Source of the DNA: Sulfurimonas sp.
Lineage (GTDB): Bacteria > Campylobacterota > Campylobacteria > Campylobacterales > Sulfurimonadaceae
Direction: 5' to 3'
DNA: 64,000 nt
Assembly: GCF_028713515.1 (NCBI RefSeq)
Contig: NZ_JAQTOD010000002.1
Span: forward strand, 366,501-430,500
The position numbers and the translations under genes were made by a program. Below, piece after piece: positions 1 to 15,227 of the stretch. The notes below the pieces were generated by a model. The model ran no database searches. It was not told the origin of the DNA and saw nothing but the letters and a program-made list of their open reading frames with translations. The stretch's first letter is position 1. Each line of letters opens with the position of its first letter.

Positions 1-483
1 CTGAACTCTTTTTACTTCCTCTTTTTTCTCATCTTTTCCGGTTGTATTTAACTTCACACTTATTTTAAATAACTTTAGCGTAGGAAGCATTATATAGTCA
101 TCTGCTCCTGTTGCTTTAGCTAATATCTCTAGAGTTTTTTCTAGTCCAAATTTAGAGTTTGGCGCAACTGCCAAAGTAAACCAGATATTAAAATCATGAT
201 TTCTCTCATAGTTATGAGAGATTCCAGGGTGAGAGTTGATAATTTTTACAGCATCACTTATCTTGTCCGCTGCAACTTTAAAAGCAACCAATGATGAGAT
301 ATAGCCTAATCTTTTTGTATCAAAAATTGCTGAAGTTTGACGAATAATATTTGCTTTTTTTTGCTCTTGTAAAATAGAGAGAACTTCTCCTTCTCTCATA
401 TTTAGCTCATCTGCTATCTCTTTAAATGGCCTTGCCACAAGTGGGAATTTTTTCTGGATTCTGGATAAAATTTCATCTTTCAT
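1..483 (-). CDS. Siroheme decarboxylase, Lrp/AsnC-like (NirD/L/G/H or AhbA type), 3' end cut by window
   Basis: The visible 161 codons run off the left edge. The N-terminus is a winged-helix segment (FPLVARPFKEIADELNM, about residues 8-25), followed by an AsnC-type ligand-binding fold containing SHNYERNHDFNIWFT (about residues 83-97). A Y-E-R-x-H-x-x-N-x-W motif is typical of the NirD/L/G/H and AhbA/B siroheme decarboxylases, which convert siroheme to 12,18-didecarboxysiroheme on the way to heme d1. It diverges from a precorrin-2 dehydrogenase gene and lies near nirS, nirJ and nirF, which fits heme d1 synthesis. An in-frame ATG at 504 is an alternative start. I prefer 483 because the predicted promoter would leave only about 9 nt of leader before 504. 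Which of the nirD/L/G/H names applies cannot be decided from a fragment. Confidence 0.85.
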   Translation of the reverse strand, partial: MKDEILSRIQKKFPLVARPFKEIADELNMREGEVLSILQEQKKANIIRQTSAIFDTKRLGYISSLVAFKVAADKISDAVKIINSHPGISHNYERNHDFNIWFTLAVAPNSKFGLEKTLEILAKATGADDYIMLPTLKLFKISVKLNTTGKDEKKEEVKRVQ

Positions 484-547
484 ACTGCTTATATTTCCGT
501 TCATACTTTTATTTTGTCGATTCTATTATAGTTTTAATTAATAGTAG

Positions 548-561
548 TTGATTTTTATCAA
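548..561. promoter_or_regulatory. FNR/DNR-type box serving two divergent genes
   Basis: TTGATTTTTATCAA is a perfect match to the FNR/DNR/NNR consensus TTGAT-N4-ATCAA, centred at 554.5. Counting 41.5 bp either way, as in class II activated promoters, predicts a plus-strand start near 596 with a -10-like GATACT at 584-589. It also predicts a minus-strand start near 513 with a -10-like TAGAAT (complement of 520-525). Both hexamers sit where they should, so one bound dimer could activate both the decarboxylase and the siroheme gene. The sequence match is direct; the regulator's identity is inferred. Confidence 0.8.
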
Positions 562-621
562 TTTAAAATATTTAAAATTATGTGATACTATGTCAAATAA
601 ACAGAGTAATAAGTGAGAGAA

Positions 622-1191
622 ATGAGTTATTTTCCGGCCTTTTTAAAACTTGATAATAAAAAAATCCTAATCGTTGGTGGAGGCTATATAGCTTATGAAA
701 AGTTAGAACATCTGCTTGATTTTACTACTGATATTTCGATTATTTCGATGGAACTATCCGAAGAGATGACAAAAACCATCAAAGAAAAATCTCTCTGTTT
801 TGAAAAAAGAGCTTATGAGGTAGGTGATATAAAAGATTTTGCTGTCGTTATTGTCGCGGTTGACGACATTTCGCTGCAAGCTAAAATTTTTGCAGAATCA
901 AAACTCTACAACTGCCTATGTAACTCTGTTGACTCTGTGGATTATTGTGATTTTATATTTCCATCTTATATAAAAAAAGATGACCTAACTATCGCTGTAT
1001 CAACTTCTGGGGCCTCTCCAGCCATGGCAAAACAGTTAAGAGCATATATAGAAAATTTAATTCCCACAACAATTGGTGAATTTCTAAGAGAGATGAGAGA
1101 ACTAAGAACAACATTGCCAAAAGGCAAAGAGAGAATGAAGATGCTTGAAGAAAAAGCAAGCAAATATATAAAAACATGGAGCAACAGATGA
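622..1191 (+). CDS. Precorrin-2 dehydrogenase / sirohydrochlorin ferrochelatase-like (SirC/Met8/CysG N-domain)
   Basis: A 189-aa protein with an N-terminal Rossmann fold (KKILIVGGGYIAYEKLEHLL, residues about 14-33) and the family signature TIAVSTSGASPAMAKQLRAYIE (about residues 123-144). It oxidises precorrin-2 to sirohydrochlorin with NAD+, and Met8-type members also insert iron to give siroheme, the precursor of heme d1. ATG at 622 is chosen over an in-frame GTG at 613 because GAGAG lies just upstream. Its stop overlaps the next start (ATGA). The SUMT that would supply precorrin-2 is at 12307-13038. Whether this short form has ferrochelatase activity cannot be read from sequence. Confidence 0.9.
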   Translation: MSYFPAFLKLDNKKILIVGGGYIAYEKLEHLLDFTTDISIISMELSEEMTKTIKEKSLCFEKRAYEVGDIKDFAVVIVAVDDISLQAKIFAESKLYNCLCNSVDSVDYCDFIFPSYIKKDDLTIAVSTSGASPAMAKQLRAYIENLIPTTIGEFLREMRELRTTLPKGKERMKMLEEKASKYIKTWSNR

Positions 1192-1565
1192 CACAAAAAA
1201 AAGTTTTAATTTTCGTATTTTTTACAGCATTTCTTATTTTAGGAATAGTTTCAATGCAACGAGCAATGCCTCCAGCAAAAGAGGCTCGAATCTACAAAGC
1301 CCTACATGTTTATAGTCCATACGAGATGGAAAAAAGAGTTGGCGGACTAGAAATTTTAGATAAGCGAGACAACACAAAAGAGAAACCAAGTTCAAAAGAG
1401 GTTCTTTTTAGATTTGATGAAGTAGAGGGACAATGGGGTAAGGAGCATTTTAAAATAGATGGAAATGAAATTTCAATCTCTGATGAGAAAAATCAAACCG
1501 TTGGTAAAGTTTTAATTGAAACAGAAAAAGAGAGAGCTTTTGTTAAAAGGTTTTACGGAATTTAA
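1188..1565 (+). CDS. Membrane-anchored hypothetical protein
   Basis: A 125-aa protein with one N-terminal hydrophobic segment (KVLIFVFFTAFLILGIVSM, about residues 4-22) and a charged remainder, so probably an inner-membrane-anchored periplasmic protein or one with an uncleaved signal. The start is ATG 1188, overlapping the previous TGA (ATGA), with GGAG at 1178-1181 as Shine-Dalgarno. Translational coupling to the siroheme gene suggests co-expression under the FNR-type box. I do not recognise a family. The C-terminal part (about residues 70-125) looks like a small beta-rich domain. Confidence 0.7.
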   Translation: MTQKKVLIFVFFTAFLILGIVSMQRAMPPAKEARIYKALHVYSPYEMEKRVGGLEILDKRDNTKEKPSSKEVLFRFDEVEGQWGKEHFKIDGNEISISDEKNQTVGKVLIETEKERAFVKRFYGI

Positions 1566-1614
1566 GATATCTTCAAATCCAACTAACTTAAAATTTTTCA
1601 AGAACTAACTAGCT

Positions 1615-2844
1615 TTAGTCTGAAGATTGATTTAGAAGATTTTCTTTTAGTTTAAGAGAGAAATAGAGCGCCCCAAGCAGAGTTAAAATTGCACTGTTAT
1701 ATAAAATCGTATAATTAAAATAGTGCAAAATCACCCCGCCGATTATAGAAAAAAACATTCCTAAAGAGACAATATTCATCTGAAGCGCTATGTAAATTGG
1801 TCTTTTTTGTGGTGGTGCAATTTTTAGTATAAGATTACTTGAGGCAATGCGACTTCCATCCATTGATGCACCAATTATAAAAAAGATAAGTGAATACTCA
1901 AATAGCGAAGATGCGTTTAGTGCTATAGCTATTGCTCCAAGCTGGAAAAGTATTGAGATTTGCGCCGTTAGTCTGTTTTTATCACTTCCACTAAGCTTCC
2001 CCCACAAAAAATTACTAACCATTGCGCCAACCATTTGAGTAGTAATCAAGCTACCAATAGCAACTCCATCAAGATCTATCTTCGTTTTTGCATCTAAGAT
2101 GATAAATGGCAAAGCAATCAGGTATCCATATGCCAAAAGAAAGGTTGTTATCTGGATTTGAAGATTCTTATCAGCCTTTAAAAGCACCCAAGAATTATGC
2201 AAAAATTCCTTAAATGAACTCTCTTTTTTAGATGTCTCCTTTTTAATTGGCTCATCAACCAAAGAAAATGCCAAATAACCAAAGCCCATGATAAATGAGC
2301 TGATGATAAAAAGATAGCCATAGCTATATGGCGGAGTGAAAGATTCTAAAATCCAAGCCGCCAACGCGCCACTGAGAAGTCCTCCTGCACCACTAAAAAA
2401 TTGACGATATGCCATAGTTTTTCCACGAAATTTATGGCTAAATATCTTAGCCATAATCTCCCTAAAATATATTGCAGCAAATCCAGCACTAAATGAGAAT
2501 AAAAATAACCCTAATCCCATAAAAAAAAGTGTTAGATTTGGGTAATCTTTACCAAAAATAACAATAGCAATACCAATAAAAAACCATGATAAAAATCTAA
2601 TAAAGAAAATACGACGAAGATATGGCAACATAAGTTGGTAACTTTGCGCATGAAAGGCAGCAAAAAGCTGAACTACAATAGCTCCACCACGAAGAAGAGA
2701 TGCAAAAAAACCAACAAGCATAGAACTTCCACCAAAGTAATTCACAATCAAAGGTAAGATAGTTGATGGCTCAGCTATTGTTGTACCAATAGCCAAAAAG
2801 AAGCCATGTAAAATATTTTTTACATGGTTAGAGAATTTATCCAT
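1615..2844 (-). CDS. MFS transporter
   Basis: A 409-aa polytopic protein with about twelve hydrophobic segments in two halves, split by a charged central loop (DEPIKKETSKKESSFKEF, about residues 199-216). An FRGKTMAYRQ stretch in the cytoplasmic loop region (about residues 138-147) resembles the loop 2-3 motif of the major facilitator superfamily. The substrate cannot be predicted. Its start overlaps the 3' end of the TrpD2-like gene by 8 bp, so the two are probably one minus-strand unit. It converges with the gene ending at 1565 across about 50 bp with no clear terminator. Confidence 0.85.
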   Translation of the reverse strand: MDKFSNHVKNILHGFFLAIGTTIAEPSTILPLIVNYFGGSSMLVGFFASLLRGGAIVVQLFAAFHAQSYQLMLPYLRRIFFIRFLSWFFIGIAIVIFGKDYPNLTLFFMGLGLFLFSFSAGFAAIYFREIMAKIFSHKFRGKTMAYRQFFSGAGGLLSGALAAWILESFTPPYSYGYLFIISSFIMGFGYLAFSLVDEPIKKETSKKESSFKEFLHNSWVLLKADKNLQIQITTFLLAYGYLIALPFIILDAKTKIDLDGVAIGSLITTQMVGAMVSNFLWGKLSGSDKNRLTAQISILFQLGAIAIALNASSLFEYSLIFFIIGASMDGSRIASSNLILKIAPPQKRPIYIALQMNIVSLGMFFSIIGGVILHYFNYTILYNSAILTLLGALYFSLKLKENLLNQSSD

Positions 2845-3745
2845 TTAATTTTTCAAAGCCCTCATCAATACTTTTTACCTTATCGCAAACAAAAAGTGAA
2901 ATCGCTGCGTTTAATTTTGCAAGTTTTAAAAATTCTGATGATGGGTTATTTATCTGCTCCAACGACTCATCAAGGGTGATTGCATCCCAAGATTTTGTGT
3001 AATTTATCCCGTATCTCTCAGTCTCTATGATAATCTCTTCAACTTCTGCACCTTTTACTATCCACAAGCGACCCTTACTAAAAAGCTCTGGAGTTCCTTC
3101 GTTACCTTGAAGCAGAGCAAATCTTTTATATCTATCTGAAAAAGTTTCAACATATTTTTTTACATAAGGTTTATGAAACACGCCAGTCATTGCATATTCG
3201 CTATTTGCAACTCTTGGGAGCTTTTCAATAGTATTTAATCCCGAACGAAGACCAAGCCTCATACGAAGATTGGTTAATTCGTGCATCTCTTTAAAAAAAT
3301 CTGCTCTATCAAAATAGTGAATATTGCTGCTAAGCTCTATGTTTGTAGCTATATTTTTTAATGTTATCCCTTTTTTCGCAGGTGTTAAATCATCACCAAT
3401 CACAACAATATTGAGCTCAGAATCTTTTAGCAGTTTTGCCACCAACGGAAACATATAGGGATTGTTCTCTTTGCCATCAAATGGATATCCTAGTTCAAGT
3501 GAGTTTTCAACCGTTGTCTTTCTTATAAACCCATCGCAGGCTTCAACGGCGCCTCTAAACTCCTCTGTCGTCTCTGGTTTTAGTCTCCACCCAAGTAAAA
3601 ATGCTGCTATTTGTTCATTGTGAGCACTTCTCTTTAAAATCTGCTCCATCATATCTTTTGACTCTTCAAAAGTTAAATCTCTATTTCCTTTTACACCTGT
3701 TCCTACTGCATGTATATACTTAAAAAAATCCATATTTTTACTCAC
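2837..3745 (-). CDS. Anthranilate phosphoribosyltransferase-like protein (TrpD2/YbiB type)
   Basis: A 302-aa protein with the helical N-domain of glycosyltransferase family 3 (FEESKDMMEQIL, then NEQIAAFLLGWRLKPETTEEF, about residues 22-60) and the later LRMRLGLRSGLNTIEKLPR segment (about residues 156-174), which matches the conserved R-x-x-L-G-x-R-T-x-x-N region. Where TrpD has the PRPP-binding GTGGD loop this protein reads DGKENNPYMFP, so it is unlikely to be an anthranilate phosphoribosyltransferase. YbiB/TrpD2 relatives bind nucleic acid, so that role is possible. It precedes and overlaps the MFS gene. Confidence 0.75.
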   Translation of the reverse strand: MSKNMDFFKYIHAVGTGVKGNRDLTFEESKDMMEQILKRSAHNEQIAAFLLGWRLKPETTEEFRGAVEACDGFIRKTTVENSLELGYPFDGKENNPYMFPLVAKLLKDSELNIVVIGDDLTPAKKGITLKNIATNIELSSNIHYFDRADFFKEMHELTNLRMRLGLRSGLNTIEKLPRVANSEYAMTGVFHKPYVKKYVETFSDRYKRFALLQGNEGTPELFSKGRLWIVKGAEVEEIIIETERYGINYTKSWDAITLDESLEQINNPSSEFLKLAKLNAAISLFVCDKVKSIDEGFEKLNG

Positions 3746-3860
3746 TTTTTACAATTTTTTTATTTTTTGTGTATGATATACTTATTTACTTAATATCAGA
3801 TAACAAAACATTGTTTGATATTTTATATAATAAGCTACAAAATAATATAAGGATTCAAGA

Positions 3861-4673
3861 ATGTCAAAAGTTGTTTTAATCACAGGTGCTTCTTCAGGGA
3901 TGGGCGAAATAAGTGCAAAATTTTTATCTGATAACGGATACGTAGTTTATGCCGGAACAAGAGATAAAGTTGCAATATCAGATAATGCAAAACTAAAAAA
4001 TATTTATGTTGATGTAACAAAAACAGAGAGTATAAAAAACGCGGTAAATTTAATCATTAAAAACGAGGGAAAAATTGATGTCCTTGTAAATAACGCAGGA
4101 TATGGTCTTTTATCAACGCTTGAAGATGGAACTGATGAAGAAATTTTTAACCAATTTGATGTAAATGTATTTGGACTTATCAAAACAACAAGAGAAGTTC
4201 TTCCATATATGAGAGAGGCAAAAAGCGGAGTGATAATTAACATCAGTTCGTTTTTAGGAAAGATGGGCCTTCCTCTTTTATCTCATTATAATGCTTCAAA
4301 GTATGCTGTTGAGGGGATTGTAGACTCTTTAAGATTTGAGGTACTTCCATTTGGCATAAGAGTACACTCAATCCAGTCAGGCCTTTTTGGCACAAATTTT
4401 GTTAAAAAAGGATTAGTTGCAAATGCTAAAACAACAAGCGAAACTTCTCCATACAAAGAGTTAGTATCTCACTTTGTTCCAATAGTTGCAAAAGCCATAA
4501 ACGAGGGCCCCTCTGCACAACCAATAGCTGACGCCATAAAGATGATTATTGAGGATGAAAATGCTGATATTTCAGTGCCGGTAGGCGCAGAAGCAGTAAC
4601 TTTTGTGCCGTTAAGAAAAGAGCTAAGCGACAAAGATTTTGAGCAAAAAATCAGAGATACTTTTAGCCTCTAA
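3861..4673 (+). CDS. Short-chain dehydrogenase/reductase
   Basis: A 270-aa classical SDR. It has the cofactor motif TGASSGMG (residues 7-14), the structural NNAG (about residues 77-80), a catalytic serine in INISSFLGK and the YNASK active-site motif (about residues 143-147). An NADP(H)- or NAD(H)-dependent oxidoreductase with no predictable substrate. A GC-rich hairpin plus T-run follows at 4722-4751, so it is probably monocistronic. It sits between the TrpD2-like gene (divergent) and the nor region without an obvious functional link. Confidence 0.9.
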   Translation: MSKVVLITGASSGMGEISAKFLSDNGYVVYAGTRDKVAISDNAKLKNIYVDVTKTESIKNAVNLIIKNEGKIDVLVNNAGYGLLSTLEDGTDEEIFNQFDVNVFGLIKTTREVLPYMREAKSGVIINISSFLGKMGLPLLSHYNASKYAVEGIVDSLRFEVLPFGIRVHSIQSGLFGTNFVKKGLVANAKTTSETSPYKELVSHFVPIVAKAINEGPSAQPIADAIKMIIEDENADISVPVGAEAVTFVPLRKELSDKDFEQKIRDTFSL

Positions 4674-4721
4674 CTGATTTTTTTAAACATAAAAAATAAT
4701 CATTCCATACCCATAATAAGT

Positions 4722-4751
4722 CCGCGTGCATCTGAGAAAGTGCGCGTTTTT
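4722..4751 (+). terminator. Rho-independent terminator after the SDR gene
   Basis: A GC-rich hairpin (CGCGTG paired with TGCGCG through four Watson-Crick and two wobble pairs) is followed directly by TTTTT. It lies 48 bp past the SDR stop and separates that gene from the nor-associated transcript. Confidence 0.65.
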
Positions 4752-4801
4752 ACGAATTTCTAAAAGTTTTTAAAATTTAAGATATTTAAAGAGTTAGTCG
4801 C

Positions 4802-4810
4802 TGATATAAT
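4802..4810 (+). promoter_or_regulatory. Extended -10 promoter for the 63-aa membrane protein gene
   Basis: TGATATAAT is an extended -10 element (TGn plus a perfect TATAAT at 4805-4810) in T/A-rich DNA. It places the transcription start near 4817, about 27 nt before the ATG at 4844. No FNR-type box is seen upstream of it. Confidence 0.55.
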
Positions 4811-4843
4811 TCTACTTAAAAAAATTATTTAAAAGAGTTCAAA

Positions 4844-5035
4844 ATGATTCAAGATATAGTTATGATTCTCGTAATGGGTGTTCCAATGCTACTTTTTTCC
4901 GTATATCCTGGAATTAAGATTGGCGAGTATCTTGAAGAAAAATATTGTATTAGTGAGAGAACAAAACGATTGGTGATGATTATATTTACAATACTGTTTA
5001 CGCTAACTATGTCCACGCTACTACATTTTATCTAG
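4844..5035 (+). CDS. Small two-helix membrane protein upstream of the nor genes
   Basis: A 63-aa protein with two hydrophobic segments (about residues 5-22 and 43-62) joined by a charged hairpin (GEYLEEKYCISERTKR). No family recognised. The N-terminal IQDI and the P/V-G-I-K-x-G pattern loosely resemble the next gene's IQDI and GIYTAVKVG, so the two may be diverged relatives. It has its own extended -10 promoter. Its place before norC suggests a role in NOR assembly or nitrogen-oxide respiration, but that is inference from position only. Confidence 0.65.
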   Translation: MIQDIVMILVMGVPMLLFSVYPGIKIGEYLEEKYCISERTKRLVMIIFTILFTLTMSTLLHFI

Positions 5036-5122
5036 CTATATTATTAAGTTTTCCTTATAATATGTTTCATATAGTTACAACAATTATAAAACAAATCTTA
5101 AAATTTAAATTAAGTTTGAAAC

Positions 5123-5164
5123 TTGATATATATCAACAAAGTTTAATCTAAATCAAACTAAAAT
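5123..5164 (+). promoter_or_regulatory. Class II-type FNR/DNR promoter of the nor/nir run
   Basis: TTGATATATATCAA at 5123-5136 is a perfect TTGAT-N4-ATCAA box centred at 5129.5. A TAAAAT hexamer at 5159-5164 sits exactly where a -10 element should lie for a start near 5171, putting the box at -41.5. The first gene downstream starts at 5210, followed by norC, norB and nirS. This is the geometry of activation by an FNR/DNR/NNR-family regulator under low oxygen or NO. Confidence 0.8.
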
Positions 5165-5209
5165 TCTATGTGATTCTGAAAAAGTATAACAATTGAAGGG
5201 GGTTTGAAG

Positions 5210-5536
5210 ATGGTTCAAGAGACTATAATAATTCAAGATATTATTGCTAATGATTTTTTAACAATATTTATATCTTCTTCTCTTGTTTTAGTATTTGGAG
5301 GATTCTATGTTGGTATATATACGGCTGTAAAAGTTGGGCTGCTTAAAAAATGGGCCATGCTTTTTGCTTACATTTTTTGGATATTAACTGATTACTGTTT
5401 ATATCTAATGGGAAGCTTAATGCATGTCAACGATTTTACGGGCAAGGCTTTAGTTATGGCCGCTATTGGATTGTTATTGCTTCCACATGCGGTTTATCAC
5501 ATGCAAAATCGAGTTCATGAAGAAAATGAACACTAG
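5210..5536 (+). CDS. NOR-associated membrane protein of unknown function
   Basis: A 108-aa protein with about three hydrophobic segments (about residues 17-38, 46-66 and 78-95) and a charged, His-rich C-terminus (HAVYHMQNRVHEENEH). ATG 5210 is chosen because the strong AAGGGGG at 5196-5202 lies 7 nt upstream; an in-frame TTG at 5204 would be too close. It is the first gene behind the FNR-type promoter, 43 bp before norC. I recognise no family. Position suggests it helps NOR assembly, heme or metal insertion, or electron delivery. Confidence 0.75.
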   Translation: MVQETIIIQDIIANDFLTIFISSSLVLVFGGFYVGIYTAVKVGLLKKWAMLFAYIFWILTDYCLYLMGSLMHVNDFTGKALVMAAIGLLLLPHAVYHMQNRVHEENEH

Positions 5537-5579
5537 ATTTAGTATATATGCAAACTTATAATTTATAGGAGGGTACACA

Positions 5580-6266
5580 GTGGCTAAAAAAACTGTATGG
5601 AGTGACAATCGTTTCTGGCAACGCTCAGCAGCTTGGATTACGGGCTTCGCATCAATCTTACTCATTTGGTTAACGTTTGATACGATACCACAAATAAAGA
5701 TGGGTAATGATGCTGATTTACAAAATGGTGTAACTAAGAGGGTTCCAGGACCAACGGTTATTAACTACAAGATTACTTATGAAATGAACACTAAGCGTGG
5801 ACATGAAATTCCAGTAATTGGCGGAATGAATGCAGAAGGAACTTCAGCTTTTCAAGAAAAAGAGAAATTCTTTGGTCGTGATGACTGGAGCCAAGATGAG
5901 GCTATGGAACTACTTGCTTTAGGTAAATTAGCTTCTCAATCAAAAAACTGTATGAATTGTCATACACTTCTTGGAAATGGAGCATATTATGCACCAGATT
6001 TAACTAAAGCTTGGTTAGATCCAGCGTGGGGACCAGAAGGTTCAATGCAATCAATGACAGGAAAAAGTACAAAAGAAGAAGCAATGGCTGAATTCTTACA
6101 ACATCCATCGCAATACCCTACTCACGCTCGTATGATGCCAAATCTTGGTATTACAGCTGCAGAGGCTAAAGGTTTGGTAGCTTTCTTGAAACATATGACA
6201 TCAATTGATACAAATGGTTTCCCGAGAAACTTCGCAAAAATTCAAGGAGCGGTTCATGGCAAATAA
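5580..6266 (+). CDS. norC: Nitric oxide reductase cytochrome c subunit NorC
   Basis: A 228-aa subunit of cNOR with an N-terminal membrane anchor (residues about 16-34), a periplasmic domain and one c-type heme site CMNCH (124-128). Methionines in HARMMPNLG (about 185-186) are candidate distal ligands. It passes electrons from periplasmic cytochromes to NorB. The start is GTG at 5580 behind a strong AGGAGGG at 5567-5573. Its last 11 bp overlap norB, which suggests translational coupling. Confidence 0.97.
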   Translation: MAKKTVWSDNRFWQRSAAWITGFASILLIWLTFDTIPQIKMGNDADLQNGVTKRVPGPTVINYKITYEMNTKRGHEIPVIGGMNAEGTSAFQEKEKFFGRDDWSQDEAMELLALGKLASQSKNCMNCHTLLGNGAYYAPDLTKAWLDPAWGPEGSMQSMTGKSTKEEAMAEFLQHPSQYPTHARMMPNLGITAAEAKGLVAFLKHMTSIDTNGFPRNFAKIQGAVHGK

Positions 6267-7680
6267 TTATTTAACTACAGAATCAAAAAAACTAGCAACA
6301 TGGTATTTTACTTTTGCTGCAATTATTTTTGGCGCGCAGTTGGTGTTTGGTCTAGTAGCTGCATTTCAATATGTAATGCCAGGTTTCTTATTTGAAATAG
6401 TTGACTTTTCTGTTGCTAGAATGATACATATTAATGCACTTGTTGTATGGATGGTATTTGCAATGATGGGTTCAGTTTATTGGTTATTACCTGATGAAAC
6501 AGGTATTGAAACAGTAGGAATTGGACTTGGAAAATTACTTTTCTGGGTATTTGCAGCAGCAATCGTTATTGTTGTTCTTGTATATCTATTAGTTCAAGTT
6601 GGACCAGCAGATCAAACTACTATCTGGTTTATCAATGAAGGTCGTGAATACTTAGAAGCACCTCGTTGGGCTGATATTGGTATTGTTGTTGTTGTTCTTG
6701 GTTTTGTATATAACCTTTATGCAACAGGAATGAAAGGTAACCGTTCAGGTATCGTTACTGTACTTATGGCTGATATGCTAGCATTTGCTGGTATCTACTT
6801 AGCTGGTATGGGTTATACTGATAATATCTCTATTGATCAATACTGGTGGTGGTGGGTAATTCACTTGTGGGTTGAGGCTACTTGGGAAGTTTTCGTTGGT
6901 TCGATTGCTGCTTATGGTCTTATCACTATGATTGGAGCACATCGTAAAGTTGTAGAAATGTGGTTATGGATTGAAGTAGCTATGTTATTTGGTTCAGGTA
7001 TCTTAGGTATCGGTCACCACTACTTCTGGATTGGAACACCTGAATACTGGTGGGAAATTGGAGCACTATTTAGTGCACTAGAGCCATTACCACTTGTTGC
7101 TATGTTCATCCATGTACTATATGACTGGGGTAAACAACAAGGTGCACAAGAAGCACAAGGAAAAGAGGTTTCTGTTATAGCTAACAAACCTGCATTTACT
7201 TGGTTCGTACTACAAGCTCTTGGTAACTTCTTGGGTGCTGGTGTATGGGGATTCTTTCATACATTCCCACAAGTTAACCTTTATACACACGGTACACAGT
7301 TTACATCGGCGCACGGTCACTTAGCGTTCTTTGGAGCTTATGCAACTATCTTGATAGGTATGTTTTATATAGCTGTTCAAGGTAAGCACGGTATTAAAGT
7401 TATGCATGCAACTAAAAAATCTATCTGGGCAACTAGTATGATATTTGGTGGTGTACTTGGTATGACTGCAGCGCTTACTATGTCTGGATATGTTCAAGTT
7501 CTTGTTGAGCGTGCTCAAATGGGTGCTAGTTGGTCAGGTTACTTTGATAGTCAAGCAAGTGTTTGGTTTGCGCAAGGTATGGATTGGAGACTTATAATGG
7601 GTATAGTTACATTCTTAGGTTTCGTAATTCTTGTAACAGATTTATTGAGTATCGGTAAAGCTACTCATCACGAACGTTAA
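6256..7680 (+). CDS. norB: Nitric oxide reductase large subunit NorB
   Basis: A 474-aa, about 12-helix heme-copper oxidase superfamily enzyme reducing two NO to N2O. Metal ligands are visible: H58 (RMIHIN), H203 in HLWVEATWE with E207/E211, H254-H255 (GHHYFW), E276 (SALEPLPL) and H353/H355 (SAHGHLAFF), which supply the low-spin heme b, heme b3 and FeB sites with their glutamates. It lacks the long N-terminal quinol-oxidising extension of qNOR, as expected with norC adjacent. ATG 6256 (AAGGAGC at 6244-6250 upstream) is preferred to the longer frame beginning at 6205. Confidence 0.98.
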   Translation: MANNYLTTESKKLATWYFTFAAIIFGAQLVFGLVAAFQYVMPGFLFEIVDFSVARMIHINALVVWMVFAMMGSVYWLLPDETGIETVGIGLGKLLFWVFAAAIVIVVLVYLLVQVGPADQTTIWFINEGREYLEAPRWADIGIVVVVLGFVYNLYATGMKGNRSGIVTVLMADMLAFAGIYLAGMGYTDNISIDQYWWWWVIHLWVEATWEVFVGSIAAYGLITMIGAHRKVVEMWLWIEVAMLFGSGILGIGHHYFWIGTPEYWWEIGALFSALEPLPLVAMFIHVLYDWGKQQGAQEAQGKEVSVIANKPAFTWFVLQALGNFLGAGVWGFFHTFPQVNLYTHGTQFTSAHGHLAFFGAYATILIGMFYIAVQGKHGIKVMHATKKSIWATSMIFGGVLGMTAALTMSGYVQVLVERAQMGASWSGYFDSQASVWFAQGMDWRLIMGIVTFLGFVILVTDLLSIGKATHHER

Positions 7681-7690
7681 GGAGACAGTT

Positions 7691-7846
7691 ATGTTTGAAC
7701 CATTTGTAGATATTGTTCCTAGTTTCTTTGGTTGGTTAAACCAAGGTCCTATGACTCTAACAATCTTTTTACACACTTTTATAGTACTTCCAATGTTTTG
7801 GATCTACAAACAAGAGAAAGCTCGTTTAGAAAAAGAAAATCACTAA
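7691..7846 (+). CDS. 51-aa single-helix membrane peptide between norB and nirS
   Basis: Eleven bases after norB, an ATG preceded by AAGGAGA (7679-7685) opens a 51-codon frame ending at TAA 7844-7846. The product has one hydrophobic helix (MTLTIFLHTFIVLPMFWIYK, residues 21-40) with a charged KQEKARLEKENH tail. Size and layout recall CcoQ/FixQ, the small subunit of the related cbb3 oxidases, but I cannot show homology. The strong ribosome site and tight spacing argue that it is translated. A structural or assembly partner of NorCB is the natural guess. Confidence 0.75.
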   Translation: MFEPFVDIVPSFFGWLNQGPMTLTIFLHTFIVLPMFWIYKQEKARLEKENH

Positions 7847-7882: not shown

Positions 7883-7912
7883 TAAATGTCTAATTTTAGA
7901 AGGAGAAATAAA

Positions 7913-9553
7913 ATGAGATTAAATAAATTAGTTATGTCTGTTGCTACTTTAGCGGTTGTTAGTTCTGGTTTACTTGCTGATACATCTGCAATGGATGTTG
8001 AAAAAGTTTTTGAAAAAGAGTGTCAAGGCTGTCATGGTCCTAACCACGAAGGTGGTGTTGGTTCAGACCTTCGTCCTGCGGTTGTTGCTAAGAAAAATTC
8101 TTACGCACTTGCTGATACAATTTTAAATGGTAGAGCTGGTACAGCAATGCCACAATTTAAAGAGAAGTTCTCAAAAGCTGATGCTGATAAAATGGTTGAT
8201 TATATTCAACACTTTAAAGGTAAAAAAATTGATACACTTACTTTAGATGCTGTAAAAAGTGGATGGAAAAAACTTAACGATAGAATGGCATTTTTCACAA
8301 AATATCCAAATCCAACGGATGTTGTCAGAAATACAGATATCTGTTTCGTAACAGAGAGAGATGCTGAGCGTGTTGCTTTCGTTGATGGTACTAACGGTAA
8401 AATCTTATCTAAGCACCCAGCTGGTTTTGCTGTGCATGTTACAGTAACTAACAAGCGCCAACCTCGTTATGCTTACTCAATCTCTCGTTCAGGTTTAGTA
8501 ACAATGTTCGACTTAAATACTCCAGGTCAACAAAAAATTGCTGAAGTTCAAGTTGGTTCTGACTCTCGTGGTCTTGCAGTTTCTCCAGATGGAAAATTCC
8601 TAATGGCTGGAAACTATGTACCAGGCGGAGCTATCTTAATGGACGCTATGACTCTTGAGCCATTAAAAGTTTACCCAACATCAAGCGTAATAAAAGCAAA
8701 TGGTGACATCGATTCATCTCGTGTAGCTGGTATTTTTGATACTCCGTACGGTCCTTATATTGCATTCGCACTTAAAGACGGTGGGCATGTTTATATCGTA
8801 GATTACTCTAAACCGAACTATCCAATTGTTGGAGATATTCCAAATATTGGTGAAATTCTTCATGATGGTTTCTTAAATGAAGGAAAAGAGATTGGTCGTT
8901 ATCTATTCATTGCATCTCAAGGTTCTGATGTTGTTGGTGTTGTAGACTTTAAAACTAAATCTTTAGTTACAAAAATCTATACAGGTCCATCATCTAAGCC
9001 ACATCCAGGTCAAGGTTCTTCTTGGTACAATGAAGGTTTAAGACAACAACTTGGTGCTACTGTTAACATGAACTTAGGTCAAGTAACTATCTGGGATAGC
9101 AATTTTGACGTAATTCGTCAAATCCCAACTGCTGGTGGTGGTCTATTTATTGGTACATCCGAGCATACTCCGTTCCTTTGGGCTGACAATGTTATCGGTG
9201 GAGAGTCTGCATGGAATCAAATTCACTTGATTAACAAGCAAACTCTTGAGCTAGACAGAATTCTTACTGTTGGCACCGAAAAAGGTACTATTACTCACCC
9301 TGTAACTCACAAAGTTATGCATGAGTGGAAAGTTCCTACGGTTAAAGACAAAGATGGAAAAGTTTTAACTCCTCGTATCCTTCACGCTGAGCCAGCAAAC
9401 CATGGTCACTGGCAAATGGTTTCTGAGTGGAATGCAGGTCGTATCGGTATCTATGAAGCTGAGACAGGAAAATTTGTTAAATATATCGAAGGTTTAACAA
9501 CTCCTACTTTCACTTACTCTATTGAGCACAGACAAACTATACCAGGCGCATAA
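7913..9553 (+). CDS. nirS: Cytochrome cd1 nitrite reductase NirS
   Basis: A 546-aa periplasmic enzyme reducing nitrite to NO. It has a signal peptide (about 1-22), an N-terminal cytochrome c domain with CQGCH at 37-41, and a C-terminal eight-bladed propeller for heme d1. Recognisable d1-domain landmarks are FAVHVTVTNKRQPRYAYSISRSG, SPDGKFLMAGNY, SSKPHPGQGSSW and GTSEHTPFLWADN, which hold the candidate heme and catalytic histidines. ATG 7913 follows AGGAG at 7901-7905. Arginine is mostly CGT, unlike the AGA-rich genes downstream, which suggests high expression. A terminator follows at 9562. Confidence 0.97.
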   Translation: MRLNKLVMSVATLAVVSSGLLADTSAMDVEKVFEKECQGCHGPNHEGGVGSDLRPAVVAKKNSYALADTILNGRAGTAMPQFKEKFSKADADKMVDYIQHFKGKKIDTLTLDAVKSGWKKLNDRMAFFTKYPNPTDVVRNTDICFVTERDAERVAFVDGTNGKILSKHPAGFAVHVTVTNKRQPRYAYSISRSGLVTMFDLNTPGQQKIAEVQVGSDSRGLAVSPDGKFLMAGNYVPGGAILMDAMTLEPLKVYPTSSVIKANGDIDSSRVAGIFDTPYGPYIAFALKDGGHVYIVDYSKPNYPIVGDIPNIGEILHDGFLNEGKEIGRYLFIASQGSDVVGVVDFKTKSLVTKIYTGPSSKPHPGQGSSWYNEGLRQQLGATVNMNLGQVTIWDSNFDVIRQIPTAGGGLFIGTSEHTPFLWADNVIGGESAWNQIHLINKQTLELDRILTVGTEKGTITHPVTHKVMHEWKVPTVKDKDGKVLTPRILHAEPANHGHWQMVSEWNAGRIGIYEAETGKFVKYIEGLTTPTFTYSIEHRQTIPGA

Positions 9554-9730: not shown

Positions 9731-10036
9731 ATGAAAAAAATTATACTTATTTTATCGGTTGCCCTCTCTTGTTCCCTGTCAGCCGAGCCAGAAGGAAAAG
9801 CTGTTTTTGAAAAATATTGTTGGGGTTGTCACCATCAGACAGCCATGGCATTTGGTCCTCCATTTAACGAAATAGCAAAAAAGCGTTCGCTTGAAGAGAT
9901 TCAGGCATACATAACAGATCCAGAATCAATGTATAAAGCATTTGGATATAAACGAACCGCTATGACAAAACTAACACTAACAGACAAAGAGAGAGAAGTT
10001 GTCGCAAAATATATTCTTACATACAAAGGTAAATAA
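9731..10036 (+). CDS. Small periplasmic monoheme cytochrome c (NirC/NirM-like)
   Basis: A 101-aa protein with a signal peptide (about 1-18, cleaved near SLSA/EP), one heme site CWGCH at 30-34 and a candidate distal methionine M78 (KRTAMTKLT). It is a typical small class I cytochrome. Its stop shares a base with the nirJ start (TAATG). In other denitrifiers small cytochromes in nir clusters (NirC, NirM) deliver electrons to NirS or act in d1 maturation; the same role is inferred here from position. Confidence 0.88.
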   Translation: MKKIILILSVALSCSLSAEPEGKAVFEKYCWGCHHQTAMAFGPPFNEIAKKRSLEEIQAYITDPESMYKAFGYKRTAMTKLTLTDKEREVVAKYILTYKGK

Positions 10037-11163
10037 TGTTTAGACTATCAAACCTAATAGCTTCCGTAGTAGAAAATAAGCCGGAGAGGGTATTAAATGG
10101 CTCTATTGCGATATGGAATTTTACAAATAGATGTAATCTCTCATGCCTTCACTGCTACTCAAAATCAACTCTTGATGAAATCGATACGCTTACTACAGAG
10201 CAGATAAAAAAAACTATTTTAGAGATGAAAGAGAATGGTGTTAAGTTTATTATCTTCTCTGGTGGAGAGCCACTCACAAGAAAAGACCTGTTTGAGATTG
10301 CTGATTTTTGTAAAGAGAACAAGATAGTTACTTATCTTTCAAGCAATGGTCTATACTTTACAAAAAGCAATGTCCAAAGAATTGTTGACACTTTTGATTA
10401 TGTTGGTATAAGTATTGATGGTGATGAGTCTACACACGACTACTTTCGTGGCTTAAAAGGTGCTTTTAGAGAGACGCTGAAAGCTGTGCAGTTGGCCAAT
10501 GCAACTGGAGCCAAGGTTGGTATTCGTTTTACTGTAACGAAAGAAACCATAAACTCTCTGGAGTATATCTTTGACTTAGCAGAGAAAGAAAATATCCCAA
10601 AAATATATATATCACATCTTGTCTATTCTGGACGAGGACTTGATAATCTAAAAATGGATTTAACTAAAGAGCAAAGAAGAGGCTCTGTTGAGTTTATCTT
10701 AAAAAAAGCGTTTGAGTATTACGAAACAGGCAGGGATATAGAGATAGTAACTGGAAACATGGAGCAAGATGCAATTCTCTTTTTAAATGAATTTGCTCTT
10801 AAATATCCAGAGTTGAAAAGCATCATGAGAGAGAGATTGGTTAGTTGGGGCGGGAATAGTGCTGGAAGAAAATTGTTAAACATAAATAGTGAAGGCGATG
10901 TAAGACCAGACCCATTTTTTCCTTTTACAGCCGGCAATATTATAGAAAAAGATTTTGGCGATATTTGGAAGGGCGGCGAGCTACTTGATAAACTAAGAGT
11001 TCATCCACGCACATATATCAGCGGAATTTGTTCAGATTGCGAGCAGATAGATATATGTAATGGCGGCTCAAGAGCAAGAGCTTATGCAGTAACTGGCGAT
11101 TTGTGGAGTGAAGATCCATCGTGCTACTTAACAGAGAAAGAGAGAAAGAGAGAAAATGACTAA
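10036..11163 (+). CDS. nirJ: Radical SAM heme d1 biosynthesis protein NirJ
   Basis: A 375-aa radical SAM enzyme with the SAM cluster motif C33-x3-C37-x2-C40 (CNLSCLHC), FSGGEPL at about 74-80, and a C-terminal SPASM-like cysteine set (CSDCEQIDIC, then a later SCYL). NirJ removes two propionate side chains from didecarboxysiroheme to form the dioxo-isobacteriochlorin intermediate of heme d1. The gene is coupled to the cytochrome upstream (TAATG) and overlaps nirF by 8 bp. AhbC and AhbD heme enzymes are related; the nirF/nirS context favours NirJ. Confidence 0.92.
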   Translation: MFRLSNLIASVVENKPERVLNGSIAIWNFTNRCNLSCLHCYSKSTLDEIDTLTTEQIKKTILEMKENGVKFIIFSGGEPLTRKDLFEIADFCKENKIVTYLSSNGLYFTKSNVQRIVDTFDYVGISIDGDESTHDYFRGLKGAFRETLKAVQLANATGAKVGIRFTVTKETINSLEYIFDLAEKENIPKIYISHLVYSGRGLDNLKMDLTKEQRRGSVEFILKKAFEYYETGRDIEIVTGNMEQDAILFLNEFALKYPELKSIMRERLVSWGGNSAGRKLLNINSEGDVRPDPFFPFTAGNIIEKDFGDIWKGGELLDKLRVHPRTYISGICSDCEQIDICNGGSRARAYAVTGDLWSEDPSCYLTEKERKREND

Positions 11164-12307
11164 TATTATGAATAAAAAACTACCAATAATTTCTATTGCG
11201 CTAGCGCTTTTAATAGCCTTCTCTTCACTTTGTGCACAGTCACTAAACCCTATTCTTAGTGATTTAGATAAAGAAGAGAAGCTGTTTATAGTTGAGAGAG
11301 AGAAAAGTTCTCTTGCCATAGTTGAAACTGGATTAACCAAAGGTCATTTAGATGGCATGCATGATATGAGTCATGGCGTTGTTAAGTTTGATGGCAAAGA
11401 TGGCTATGCTATCTCTAGAGATGGGTATGTTATTAAATTTAATCCGGAGACAGAAAAAGTTATAAAAGATTTTAAAACAAGTGATAGTGCAATTGGGTTT
11501 ACGGTTGAGAAAAACTATATAGCAGTGGCAAACTATGCTAAAAAAAGTGTAGACATTTTAGATAGAAACTTAAACCCTATAAAATCATTTAGCACTAATT
11601 CAAAAAATGTTGGAATTAAAGCTTACAAAGATTACCTGATATTTGCTCAGATGGATAACGACAAAATTACTATATTAAAAGATAAAAACGATGGCAAAAC
11701 ACTTCCAAATTTTGAGATTTTTAAAGAGTTTGAAAATGTTGGAACAATGCCATTTGACGCAATGATAAAAAACAATAACTTTATTGTTGGATTTTTCAAA
11801 AGCGACTTTTTTGGTGTTGTAAATCTTGACACTATGGAGTACTCAAAAATTAAAATCCTACTTGAAGACAGAAAGCCTGTTTTAAAAGTTCCACATTTTG
11901 GCTTTTGGAGCATAAGCGAGGGGAATGTTTTCATCCCAGCTGTTGGCAATAACAAGGTTTTAGTTTATACATCTGACTTTAAATTTGTAAAAAGCATTGA
12001 AACAGAAGGTCTTCCGGTGTTTACCGCTCTTAGCCCTGATCAAAAATACATGGTGGTAACATTTAGTGGGGACAAATTTCCGGTGGTTCAAATCATTGAT
12101 ACACAAACACTAAAAATTATTAAAAGATTTGAGTTTGACGGAAAAGTTTTACATGCAAGATGGTCAAATCTAAGACCGAATTTATATCTATCTGTAAACG
12201 ACACAAACAAAGTTGCAGTTATTAACACTAAAGAGTGGTATTTAGCTCGTGAACTATTTGGCATAAATAAGCCATCTGGTATTTTTATCTATGAAGGAAC
12301 TAAATAA
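11156..12307 (+). CDS. nirF: Heme d1 biosynthesis protein NirF
   Basis: A 383-aa exported beta-propeller related to the d1 domain of NirS. The signal peptide covers about residues 1-26 (IISIALALLIAFSSLCA). The cysteine there does not sit in a good lipobox, so it looks like an ordinary signal rather than a lipoprotein. HGVVKFDGKDGYAISRDGYVIKF (about 72-94) matches the NirF/NirS histidine region. NirF acts late in heme d1 maturation in the periplasm. The start overlaps nirJ; ATG 11156 follows GAGAAAGAGAG. It is translationally coupled to the SUMT gene (TAATG). Confidence 0.92.
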   Translation: MTNIMNKKLPIISIALALLIAFSSLCAQSLNPILSDLDKEEKLFIVEREKSSLAIVETGLTKGHLDGMHDMSHGVVKFDGKDGYAISRDGYVIKFNPETEKVIKDFKTSDSAIGFTVEKNYIAVANYAKKSVDILDRNLNPIKSFSTNSKNVGIKAYKDYLIFAQMDNDKITILKDKNDGKTLPNFEIFKEFENVGTMPFDAMIKNNNFIVGFFKSDFFGVVNLDTMEYSKIKILLEDRKPVLKVPHFGFWSISEGNVFIPAVGNNKVLVYTSDFKFVKSIETEGLPVFTALSPDQKYMVVTFSGDKFPVVQIIDTQTLKIIKRFEFDGKVLHARWSNLRPNLYLSVNDTNKVAVINTKEWYLARELFGINKPSGIFIYEGTK

Positions 12308-13038
12308 TGGGTAGAGTTTATTTAACTGGCGCTGGTCCTGGGGACATAGAACTCTTAACCATAAAAGCACTAAGGGTCATCAAAGATGCTGATGTTATTA
12401 TATATGACCGTCTAGCAAATCCAGAAATTCTTGAAGAAGCAAAAAGTGGATGTGAGTTTGTCTATGTAGGAAAAGAGGATGGCAAACACATTGTTCCTCA
12501 AGATGATATAAACGAAATTATTTATCAAAATGCACTAAAACATGAGAGTGTAGTACGCCTAAAAGGTGGTGACCCGTTTGTTTTTGGTCGTGGTGGCGAA
12601 GAGGCAATATATCTACTTGAAAGAGGTATAAAGTTTGATATTATTCCAGGAATAACCTCTGCAATAAGTGCTCCTGCATATGCTGGAATTCCCGTAACTC
12701 ACCGCGGTGTTGCTGTTAGCTTTAGAGTCGTTACAGGGCATGAATCTCCACATAAAAAAGAGTCACAAATCCCTTGGGAGACATTTAAAACTGACGATAC
12801 TATTATTTTCTTAATGGGACTTCATAATCTACCCAAAATAAGTAAAAAGCTCATAGGCATTGGGAAATCTAGCGATTGCCCGTGTGCTGTAATCTCAAAA
12901 GGAACAACAAAAGATCAGAGTGTTGTTGTTGGAACACTTGAAAATATCGTTGAAATAGCCAAAGATGTCCCTACTCCAGCGTTAATTGTTGTTGGAAAAG
13001 TAGTAGAACTAAGAGAGCAGCTAAAGTGGTTTGAGTGA
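12307..13038 (+). CDS. Uroporphyrinogen-III C-methyltransferase (SUMT; CobA/NirE type)
   Basis: A 243-aa tetrapyrrole methylase with the family's N-terminal VYLTGAGPGDIELLTIKAL (residues 4-22), VRLKGGDPFVFGRGGEE and GITSAISAPAYAGIPVTHRG motifs. It uses two SAM to make precorrin-2, the entry to siroheme and heme d1. Length fits a stand-alone SUMT with no CysG fusion. Placement among nirJ and nirF suggests a NirE role, but it could also serve siroheme or cobalamin synthesis, so I leave the symbol empty. Confidence 0.93.
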   Translation: MGRVYLTGAGPGDIELLTIKALRVIKDADVIIYDRLANPEILEEAKSGCEFVYVGKEDGKHIVPQDDINEIIYQNALKHESVVRLKGGDPFVFGRGGEEAIYLLERGIKFDIIPGITSAISAPAYAGIPVTHRGVAVSFRVVTGHESPHKKESQIPWETFKTDDTIIFLMGLHNLPKISKKLIGIGKSSDCPCAVISKGTTKDQSVVVGTLENIVEIAKDVPTPALIVVGKVVELREQLKWFE

Positions 13039-13039
13039 G

Positions 13040-14551
13040 ATGCTTAAGAGACCAGACACAAATGAGGCGGTGCAAATCGCACCAAATATATATTGGGTTG
13101 GTATGCAACTGCCGAATGACCCATTTCAGTGTCACTCATATCTTATAAAAAACGGCAATGATTCAATCCTTATTGACCCTGGCTCAATGCTTGAGTTTGA
13201 TGAAACCGTTAGAAAAATAAAAAGCATTATTGATATAAAAGATATAAAATATATCATACTTCATCATCAAGATCCAGATTTAGCAGCAGCAGTTCCAGAG
13301 ATAGAAAAATTAATAAACAGAGATGACCTGCTTATTGTAACACACTCTAGAATATCTCCGTTAATCAAACACTATAAGATAAGCTCCAAATATTATGAGA
13401 TAGACAAAAGAAATAACGAATTAATAACAAGCAGTGGATTTAGACTTGAATTTTACACAACTCCATATTGTCACTCTCCTGGTGCCTTTGTTAGTTATGA
13501 CCCACTAAGTAAAACACTTTTTTCAGGTGATATTTTTGGCGGGATAGAGGAGTCATGGGAATTTTATGCAGATGAGACATATTTTTTTAAGGCAAAACTA
13601 TTTCATCAAGAGTATATGCCAAGCAAGGATATCTTTAATTATGCACTAAATAAAATAGAAAAACTAGATATAGAAATAATTGCCCCTCAGCACGGTTCCA
13701 TAATAGAAAAGAAGTATATTTATAAACTAATTAAAGATATGAAAAATCTAGATTGTGGACTTTATATAGAGAGCGGATACAACCGAGAACTCATAGACAC
13801 TATAAAAGAGCTCCAAAACAAGGAGCAAATATTAAAAGAGAGAGATTTACTACTTTTTGAGCAATCAAAAAGGGCAGAAATTGGAGAGATGATTGGTAAT
13901 ATTGCCCATCAATGGCGACAACCTTTGGCTATTATAAACGCCTCTGTTTCAATCTTAAAAGAGAAAAATGGTGCAAATATATTAACAAAAGAGGAAATTG
14001 CGCAAAAGCTCACTAGAATGGAAGAGAGGATAGTATATATGTCTGATACCATTGACGATTTTATGAACTATTATAAACCAAACAGAGGGTGTTCTCTATT
14101 TTTAATCTCAGATGCCATCAAAAAAGCGCTTGAAATAGTAAGTTTTTCTCATAAAAATACCAAAGTGAATGTAACTCTTGACCTTAATGATAACAATAAG
14201 CTATATGGACTTATTAATGAGTTTGTGCAGGTTATTGTATCTATACTATCAAATATAAACGATATTATTATAAGTGAAGCTCCAAAGGATGTTAACATTA
14301 TAATCTCACAAAAAAGCAATGAATTCTTCTCGACAGTAACAATAGAAGACGACTGTGGCGGGATTAGTGATGGAAATGTATCTAAAATTTTTGATCCCTA
14401 TTTTACAACAAAACACAAATCTATTGGGACAGGACTTGGGCTCTATATAGCAAAAATGATTATCCAAGATAAGATGAATGGTACTTTAAGCGCAAAAAAT
14501 AGCGGTAATGGTGCTAAGTTTACAATAAAGATGAAAAATGACAATAGATAA
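13040..14551 (+). CDS. Cytosolic sensor histidine kinase with N-terminal diiron MBL (ODP-like) domain
   Basis: A 503-aa fusion. Residues 1-235 are a metallo-beta-lactamase fold of the ODP/flavodiiron type with candidate metal ligands H76, D78 and D80 (HHQDPD), H145 (YCHSPG), D164 (FSGDIFGG) and H218 (APQHGS). The second histidine of the usual HxExDH motif is leucine. A coiled linker (about 250-280) leads to the kinase: phospho-His H290 in NIAHQWRQPL and an HATPase domain ending in FDPYFTTKH...GTGLGLYIAK. No membrane helix is present. ODP diiron sites bind O2 or NO, so a gas sensor for denitrification is a strong inference. ATG 13040 is chosen over TTG 13031. It overlaps the next gene by 14 bp. 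Confidence 0.9.
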   Translation: MLKRPDTNEAVQIAPNIYWVGMQLPNDPFQCHSYLIKNGNDSILIDPGSMLEFDETVRKIKSIIDIKDIKYIILHHQDPDLAAAVPEIEKLINRDDLLIVTHSRISPLIKHYKISSKYYEIDKRNNELITSSGFRLEFYTTPYCHSPGAFVSYDPLSKTLFSGDIFGGIEESWEFYADETYFFKAKLFHQEYMPSKDIFNYALNKIEKLDIEIIAPQHGSIIEKKYIYKLIKDMKNLDCGLYIESGYNRELIDTIKELQNKEQILKERDLLLFEQSKRAEIGEMIGNIAHQWRQPLAIINASVSILKEKNGANILTKEEIAQKLTRMEERIVYMSDTIDDFMNYYKPNRGCSLFLISDAIKKALEIVSFSHKNTKVNVTLDLNDNNKLYGLINEFVQVIVSILSNINDIIISEAPKDVNIIISQKSNEFFSTVTIEDDCGGISDGNVSKIFDPYFTTKHKSIGTGLGLYIAKMIIQDKMNGTLSAKNSGNGAKFTIKMKNDNR

Positions 14552-15227
14552 AATCAATGACATATCTATACTGGTAGCTGAAGATGAAACAGAGTTGTGC
14601 GAATATATTGTAGAGTATTTAGAAATATTCTTTAGTAGAGTTTATAGAGCAGAGGATGGCATAAAGGCACTAGATATCTATACGCAGAAGCGTCCAAACA
14701 TAATATTAACAGATATAAATATGCCGAATCTTGATGGACTATCACTTATTTCTAAAATCAGAGAAAAAGATAAAGAGACTAAAATCATCATAATGAGCGC
14801 CCATTCTGAGCAAGAAAAACTACTTGAAGCAATTAAACTTCAGCTAGAGGCATATCTCATAAAACCAATAAAAACCGATATGTTAAAAAAAACACTTATG
14901 GATAGTGTAGAGCTAATCAGAAAAACTCAAAGACAAATTCGCTTAAGTGAAAATACATACTGGAGCAAAAACGGCGATACGCTAATATTCAAGAACAAAG
15001 AGATTAAGCTAGTAAAAAAAGAGTATGAAATTATAAAACTACTTTTATCCCAACCGAATCATATTTTCTCTTCACAAGAAATTTTTAAACATCTTTGGCA
15101 AAAAAAGGGTGATAAAGAGTTTTCAAACAGCGCGATAACCTCTCTTATGAAAAGACTTCGCATAAAACTCTCAGAGGATGTGATTATTAATATTTATGGT
15201 GCTGGATACAAGATAGCCCAATTTTAG
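14538..15227 (+). CDS. OmpR-family response regulator, partner of the ODP kinase
   Basis: A 229-aa protein. The receiver domain has acidic residues in VAEDE (13-17), phospho-acceptor D59 (ILTDINMP) and K109 (LIKPI). A C-terminal winged helix (about 140-229) contains VKKEYEIIKLL and the terminal INIYGAGYKI typical of OmpR/PhoB DNA binding. It overlaps the kinase gene, so the pair is co-translated. Targets are unknown; nor/nir/heme d1 promoters are candidates alongside the FNR-type boxes. It is convergent with the Sel1 gene 23 bp away. Confidence 0.93.
   Translation: MTIDKINDISILVAEDETELCEYIVEYLEIFFSRVYRAEDGIKALDIYTQKRPNIILTDINMPNLDGLSLISKIREKDKETKIIIMSAHSEQEKLLEAIKLQLEAYLIKPIKTDMLKKTLMDSVELIRKTQRQIRLSENTYWSKNGDTLIFKNKEIKLVKKEYEIIKLLLSQPNHIFSSQEIFKHLWQKKGDKEFSNSAITSLMKRLRIKLSEDVIINIYGAGYKIAQF

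Follow-up and report, generated by a model that had tools for sequence, protein, structure and literature searches.

We propose that a soluble histidine kinase carrying a diiron ODP sensor domain, together with its OmpR/PhoB-type response regulator, controls the norCB-nirS-heme d1 operon in Sulfurimonas; on comparative sequence evidence we give this reading a probability of about 0.65. The kinase-regulator pair closes the norCB-nirS-nirJFE operon, in which all genes have one orientation, in the 64,000-nucleotide stretch of Sulfurimonas sp. DNA that we analyzed (hereafter, the window; Table 1). Through it, these bacteria probably adjust denitrification to O2 or NO. The Sulfurimonas group makes and consumes NO and N2O, yet next to nothing is known of how it regulates denitrification; according to one review, expression of the respiratory complexes of S. 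denitrificans seems to be mostly constitutive (PMC6682613). The locus described here supplies a testable sensor, a regulator, a predicted regulator site, and a promoter.

Table 1. Features of the operon, its promoter, and the kinase-regulator pair (window coordinates unless a locus is named).
Feature	Position	Strand	Basis and remarks
Predicted regulator site: 10-nt tandem direct repeat TGTTTCATATAGTTAC, OmpR/PhoB-style	5063..5078	+	comparative genomics; putative binding
A+T-rich half of the element (CTTAA...TTAA), possible second response regulator contact	5096..5114	+	conserved block in alignment of cassette-bearing promoters; putative contact
CRP/FNR-type box TTGATATATATCAA	5123..5136	+	in all operon promoters with and without cassette
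-10-like hexamer TAAAAT	5159..5164	+	fixed spacing from FNR-like box
First operon gene: conserved small membrane protein, 108 aa	5210..5536	+	same place in 54 loci
norC-like cytochrome c subunit of NO reductase	5580..6266	+	ORF, order in relatives; named from position and sequence
norB, NO reductase	6205..7680	+	ORF; 77-93% identical homologues in same order; start probably downstream of 6205
nirS, cytochrome cd1 nitrite reductase	7886..9553	+	PF02239 2.5e-59
Small cytochrome c	9731..10036	+	Pfam PF00034
nirJ, heme d1 radical SAM	10036..11163	+	Radical_SAM; TIGR04051 6.1e-110, below its curated cut-off
nirF	11156..12307	+	PF02239 2.9e-25
SUMT/nirE-type uroporphyrinogen-III C-methyltransferase	12307..13038	+	TIGR01469 5.6e-90
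ODP-histidine kinase, 503 aa	13040..14551	+	ATG at 13040, stop ends at 14551; Pfam, PDB and fold matches
ODP diiron sensor domain (predicted), residues 29-219	13124..13696	+	Pfam; invariant ligands, Q217
Linker/signalling helix, about residues 245-281	13772..13882	+	AlphaFold2 helices 245-261 and 266 onward, low confidence
HisKA + HATPase_c, residues 282-500; phospho-acceptor H290, box HQWRQP	13883..14539	+	Pfam, alignments
OmpR/PhoB-type response regulator, 229 aa; E15, D16, phospho-acceptor D59	14538..15227	+	Pfam
Sulfurovum ODP-wHTH one-component regulator	L233 6992-8053; L217 6989-8050; L230 2866-3927		

The kinase gene begins 1 nt after the SUMT stop codon and overlaps the regulator gene by 14 nt. 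The original prediction had placed both genes at these coordinates directly downstream of nirJ-nirF-SUMT, and it had described the kinase as soluble and closely joined to an OmpR-type regulator; each of these points is borne out. The protein matches the Pfam ODP family PF19583 over the entire profile (1-194 of 194; 1.6e-62; 211.3 bits against a curated cut-off of 27.2), followed by HisKA (residues 282-348, 1.2e-07) and HATPase_c (residues 396-500, 2.8e-15), and by hydropathy it contains no transmembrane segment, the highest 19-residue mean being 1.45. Kinase residues H290, N405, D437, G440, G441, G465, and G467 are invariant in one of our alignments (A2), and the N and G boxes are present. The regulator matches Response_reg (PF00072, 4e-25) and Trans_reg_C (PF00486, 2.5e-14), and the motifs of both proteins are intact. 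At the other end of the operon, the opening membrane protein has no NCBIfam match. A small membrane ORF of about 50 aa (MFEPFVDIVPSFFGWLNQGPM...) lies between norB and nirS, at about 7691-7846 of the window. FNR-like boxes were absent from the norB-nirS and nirS-cytochrome c intervals and from the sequence before the kinase gene; a sigma-70 scan for extra promoters in the operon gave matches at chance level, and there was no plasmid match at 1e-60.

Is the metal site of the sensor intact? It had been predicted that the domain retains most of a diiron site and that Leu81 marks a lost histidine ligand. The six residues named as ligands (H76, D78, D80, H145, D164, and H218) stand, and are invariant in 61/61 homologues. 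The reading of Leu81 does not: the T. maritima and T. denticola ODPs have HQDPDV where the window protein has HQDPDL, and position 81 is Leu, Val, or Ile across the 61 homologues. In the T. maritima ODP, the Gln of motif 5 replaces the third His of motif 2 (PMC7785958). We take this Gln to be the equivalent of window residue Q217, which is invariant in both of our alignments (A1 and A2). Because ODPs carry Val, Leu, or Ile at position 81 and the Gln is reported to stand in, Leu81 is no defect; judged by the ODP pattern, the predicted metal site is complete, with Leu81 an ODP signature rather than a lost ligand.

The structural comparisons concern the same domain. The best PDB matches are the solved ODPs of T. 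maritima (2.3e-29, the value of the top match, 6qrq) and T. denticola (2.4e-20), a similarity far greater than chance would give. An AlphaFold2 model of moderate quality (pLDDT 72, with the linker and the loop 144-148, which contains H145, below 50) aligns with 6qwo at Z 27.4 and an rmsd of 2.7 Å over 238 residues, a score that the cores of flavodiiron proteins (FDPs) nearly reach; it aligns with the peroxo-diiron ODP 6r9n at Z 25.7 and with 6qrq at TMt 0.80. From the complete ligand set and the fold, we infer that the ODP domain binds two irons. The MBL-type (metallo-beta-lactamase-type) diiron fold is shared with FDPs such as ROO and flavorubredoxin NorV, but the window protein has HisKA/HATPase in place of their C-terminal flavodoxin-like FMN domain and HQDPDL (HxDxDL) rather than HxExDH, and by its architecture it would be no enzyme. 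We consider it very improbable that the domain is a zinc hydrolase of the MBL type, or a degenerate FDP, sensing a small-molecule substrate. The domain does match the MBL fold (PF00753, 1e-16), but the MBL motif HxHxDH is absent, the acidic ODP diiron ligands are present along with Q217, and sequence and fold are both nearest to ODPs.

How widely is the pair associated with the operon? Within the family Sulfurimonadaceae (18 GTDB genera, 228 genomes searched), tblastn on the loci showed the order norC-norB-nirS-cytochrome c-nirJ-nirF-SUMT-ODP kinase-regulator, as far as contigs reach, in 40 relatives besides the window. At 18 other loci, a count that leaves out L107 (the first 5 kb of which are N) and L112 (a lone nirS), the same operon ends after SUMT and has no kinase-regulator pair; the pair is therefore an accessory regulator and not part of the enzymes. 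Three cassette-less loci were read gene by gene (L093, L108, and L105), and in each a convergent Sel1-repeat gene comes after SUMT; in the window, a gene of the same kind comes after the regulator. Since these three operons meet a neighbour of like kind, the pair is a cassette that has been gained or lost at the operon end. The original prediction had considered that homologues might be consistently unlinked to nitrogen-oxide genes, which is not so in Sulfurimonadaceae but does describe the physical arrangement elsewhere (see below). As for co-occurrence with nirS, which it had proposed as an in silico check, the two share an operon in 40 relatives, and in G088 and G099 the pair is retained in genomes that have no nirS. 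In G099, the pair adjoins a precorrin-2 dehydrogenase-like gene and SUMT.

Two relatives have unusual operon arrangements. In L085 (genome G029, 1-5943), two nirJ-nirF-SUMT sets stand head to head on one contig, and their NirF proteins are 66% and 73% identical to that of the window, which argues against a recent copy. In L039 (genome G116, 2242-4096), the operon nirS is in two separate pieces, and the same genome has a further cd1-type match within an 856-aa frame (C15:29286-30317).

What DNA element would the regulator recognize? OmpR/PhoB-type regulators bind tandem repeats with about 10-nt phasing. The promoter upstream of the operon contains a tandem repeat that suits this type of protein (in cassette-bearing operons GTTTC-N5-GTTAC, or GTTWC-N5-GTWAC in degenerate form), and we therefore predict that it is a regulator site; comparison among genomes makes it likely to be the site of the cassette regulator. 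The repeat is found in 32/36 cassette-bearing operons and in 1/17 cassette-less operons (Fisher 3.8e-9, calculated from an initial count of 32/35 versus 1/16 with kinship ignored). In every case it starts 59-60 nt before an FNR-like box (59 in the window), and its occurrence at this fixed spacing has a chance of 0.0002 per promoter. The FNR-like box itself (TTGA-N6-TCAA) is present in 36/36 promoters with the cassette and 17/17 without, and in 35 of the 36 cassette promoters a TAAACT-like -10 lies 29 nt from the box centre, a distance that places the box near -41.5. This box, so placed on the operon promoter, is the point of likeness with the CRP/FNR-type regulators of denitrification (DNR, NnrR, and FNR). 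The CRP/FNR layer is present in cassette-bearing and cassette-less operons alike; the ODP pair would add a second input upstream of it.

When 228 whole genomes were searched, the composite of tandem repeat and FNR-like box turned up in 40 genomes, a single time in each and all of the window's genus, and 0 times in the reversed control. Comparison by hand shows that 36 of these 40 genomes have the cassette; among the other four, G206 has an N gap at that place, G128 and G138 are incomplete, and G155 is a true absence. Among genomes of the genus that contain nirS, the element is present in 36/40 with the cassette versus 4/44 without it (p = 1e-14, from a hand-made table that ignores kinship). 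Both the cassette and the element cluster on the NirS-NirJ-SUMT tree, with 7 and 3 changes, respectively, and the five independent contrasts available on well-supported branches, an underpowered set, divide into 1-2 that agree, 0 that disagree, and 3-4 with no difference. Exceptions to the association are L129, L131, L132, and L143, which have the cassette and lack the exact repeat, and L105, which has the repeat and lacks the cassette; in the sister pair L132/L110, the cassette differs and the promoters are alike. In G218 (L059/L148), norCB is absent from the operon and a near-match, GACTCATTTAGTTAC, stands directly before nirS with the 59-nt spacing to the box. A search of the window's own genome for further regulon members using the single repeat gave, at 2 mismatches, as many matches as the reversed control, mostly at unrelated genes, and one such match before a small cytochrome c gene (L153) was dropped as a candidate member because it is within chance.

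Outside the operon, relatives of the pair indicate where the output of the sensor is directed. In Sulfurovum, the kinase-regulator pair is separate from nir and is flanked by ilvB and gppA-like genes, and in genus g11 it is likewise unlinked to nir. Three Sulfurovum species have at the ilvB-gppA locus a single 353-aa gene in which the ODP domain is joined straight to a winged helix (ODP-wHTH; Table 1), the kinase and receiver having been lost in frame. The same length in three species argues against an assembly error. Over 107 aa, this winged helix shares 64-65% identity with the DNA-binding domain of the L214 partner regulator. Since the ODP domain is fused there to the DNA-binding domain of the regulator, we propose that ODP feeds that regulator, and at the sequence level the fusion is strong evidence that the ODP output is DNA binding by the partner-regulator lineage. 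More broadly, the same ODP clade is found on kinases (including hybrid kinases), GGDEF, SpoIIE phosphatase, and wHTH outputs; thus, the domain acts as a sensor module. The ODP kinase or ODP-wHTH occurs in 15 of 117 Sulfurovaceae genomes, and a NorB homologue is encoded in 15/15 of these (14 close, 1 divergent only) as compared with 49/102 of the remainder (p = 1e-4, kinship ignored). The tandem repeat was not found in the Sulfurovum nor promoters. A weaker block in these promoters, TATAAT-N-CTTA (9/14 with versus 1/11 without, p = 0.012), was picked post hoc, and we make no claim for it.

We propose the following mechanism for the window system. The diferrous site would react with a diatomic gas, most likely O2, and pass into a peroxo/diferric state as in the solved ODP. 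The linker helix would relay this change to the HisKA dimer and alter either autophosphorylation at H290 or phosphatase activity. Judging from the gene overlap and co-conservation, the phosphate would be passed to D59 of the OmpR-type regulator, which would bind the tandem repeat and act with a CRP/FNR protein on one promoter. Because the kinase and regulator genes are the last of the operon, the pair would also control its own level, provided that the operon is transcribed as a unit. Most likely, O2 would switch co-activation off, so that nir and nor would rise as O2 falls.

What does the ODP domain sense? If the ODP kinase does control the operon, O2 is the ligand that we favor, by somewhat better than even odds, because characterized ODPs are described as O2/Fe sensors (PMC7319448, PMC7666581). 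NO is appreciably less probable and stays a candidate because of the operon content and the NorB association; Fe(II) or another redox signal is an unlikely choice. The suggestion that an NO or O2 sensor here adjusts denitrification is supported in part, by the sensor-kinase architecture, the operon linkage, the promoter element, and the NorB co-occurrence; the idea that a Leu had taken the place of a ligand is not borne out. A more specific proposal, to which we would give only tentative credence, is that ODP is specialized for sensing NO: the diferrous site would bind NO that NirS has produced, and the kinase would balance nir against nor and so keep NO low. The system would then be a non-heme diiron NO sensor measuring the NO produced by its own operon, and the Sulfurovum version would be the two-component system reduced to one component, a transcription factor whose DNA-binding domain is gated directly by the diiron domain, a possibility that we hold just as tentatively. 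The operon does encode both an NO maker and an NO remover; NorB accompanies the ODP kinase or ODP-wHTH in all 15 Sulfurovaceae, and the nirS-less G088 and G099 have the pair alongside a divergent NorCB. The domain is also distantly related to flavorubredoxin NO reductase (4.5e-11), and flavodiiron NO reductases bind NO at a diferrous site. Yet the family has been characterized for O2 and Fe, a report of NO binding by an ODP was not found in the open-licence literature that we searched, cassette-less operons manage without the pair, and the NorCB genes of G088 adjoin a gene for an Rrf2-type regulator, a more usual family of NO sensor.

Another explanation is that the sensor reports iron itself (apo versus loaded site) and so restricts production of a nir operon costly in iron and heme to conditions in which Fe(II) can be had. 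The operon requires heme c, heme d1, and non-heme iron, and the T. denticola ODP appears as an Fe[II] and oxygen sensor in the title of a study cited in PMC10653840 and PMC9665402, but the loci that we read link the pair to denitrification and not to iron uptake, and we regard this explanation as improbable. We also doubt, if less strongly, that the pair merely hitch-hikes in the operon with its targets elsewhere, the promoter element belonging to another regulator. Such an arrangement would be in keeping with the pairs unlinked to nir in Sulfurovum and genus g11, with the pairs kept in the absence of nirS in G088 and G099, and with the few independent events behind the association of cassette and element. 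It fits poorly with the strict operon-end position in 40 relatives, with the restriction of the composite element to one copy per genome in the cassette-bearing genus, and with the lack of an excess of similar single sites elsewhere in the window's own genome. Control of the operon by an ODP kinase, with O2 as the favored ligand, is the reading that we retain.

The closest known relatives of the sensor domain are the ODPs of Treponema denticola (TDE2498) and Thermotoga maritima (PDB 6qnm, 6r9n, 6qrq, and 6qwo), with which it shares the fold, HQDPD(V/L), the metal ligands, the motif-5 Gln, and a signalling role. The known proteins, however, are free ODPs that act on chemotaxis, whereas the window domain is fused to a kinase, has its own regulator, and is encoded in a denitrification operon. 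FixL and NreB, kinases that sense O2 through heme or FeS and control respiration, resemble the window system as sensor kinases with a gas-binding cofactor and a regulator; in contrast, the window system would use a non-heme diiron sensor of the MBL fold and an OmpR-type regulator. If this is true, a diiron MBL-fold sensor dedicated to a respiratory operon would join heme and iron-sulfur sensors as one more sensing chemistry. Fusions of ODPs to signal-transduction domains were described by Muok et al. 2019, and they are alike in attaching ODP, as the sensor module, to a signalling output; the summary of that work in PMC7319448 names no nir linkage, cis-element, or ODP-wHTH protein. The fusion at a nir locus had been thought little described. 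ODP-signalling fusions were in fact already known, but we found neither an ODP kinase at a nir locus nor an ODP-wHTH protein described in the open-licence papers that we searched, and the denitrification link, the cis-site, and the one-component form appear to be new. Operons with and without the cassette provide natural controls for this system, and the kinase-free form should show the effect of the diiron domain on the DNA-binding domain.

Finally, we note several neighbours and fusions observed in the course of the survey. In the nirS-less genome G088 (L312, 12-2871), a divergent norCB stands beside genes for an Rrf2-type regulator and a hemerythrin-like protein, a different design of NO control. 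ODP-GGDEF fusions are found in gammaproteobacterial MAGs and in Campylobacterota (L213, L221, L269, L268, and L082). ODP-SpoIIE proteins are encoded in Spirochaetaceae and Magnetobacteriaceae MAGs (L229 and L243), and a similar long protein is encoded in Leptospiraceae (L231).
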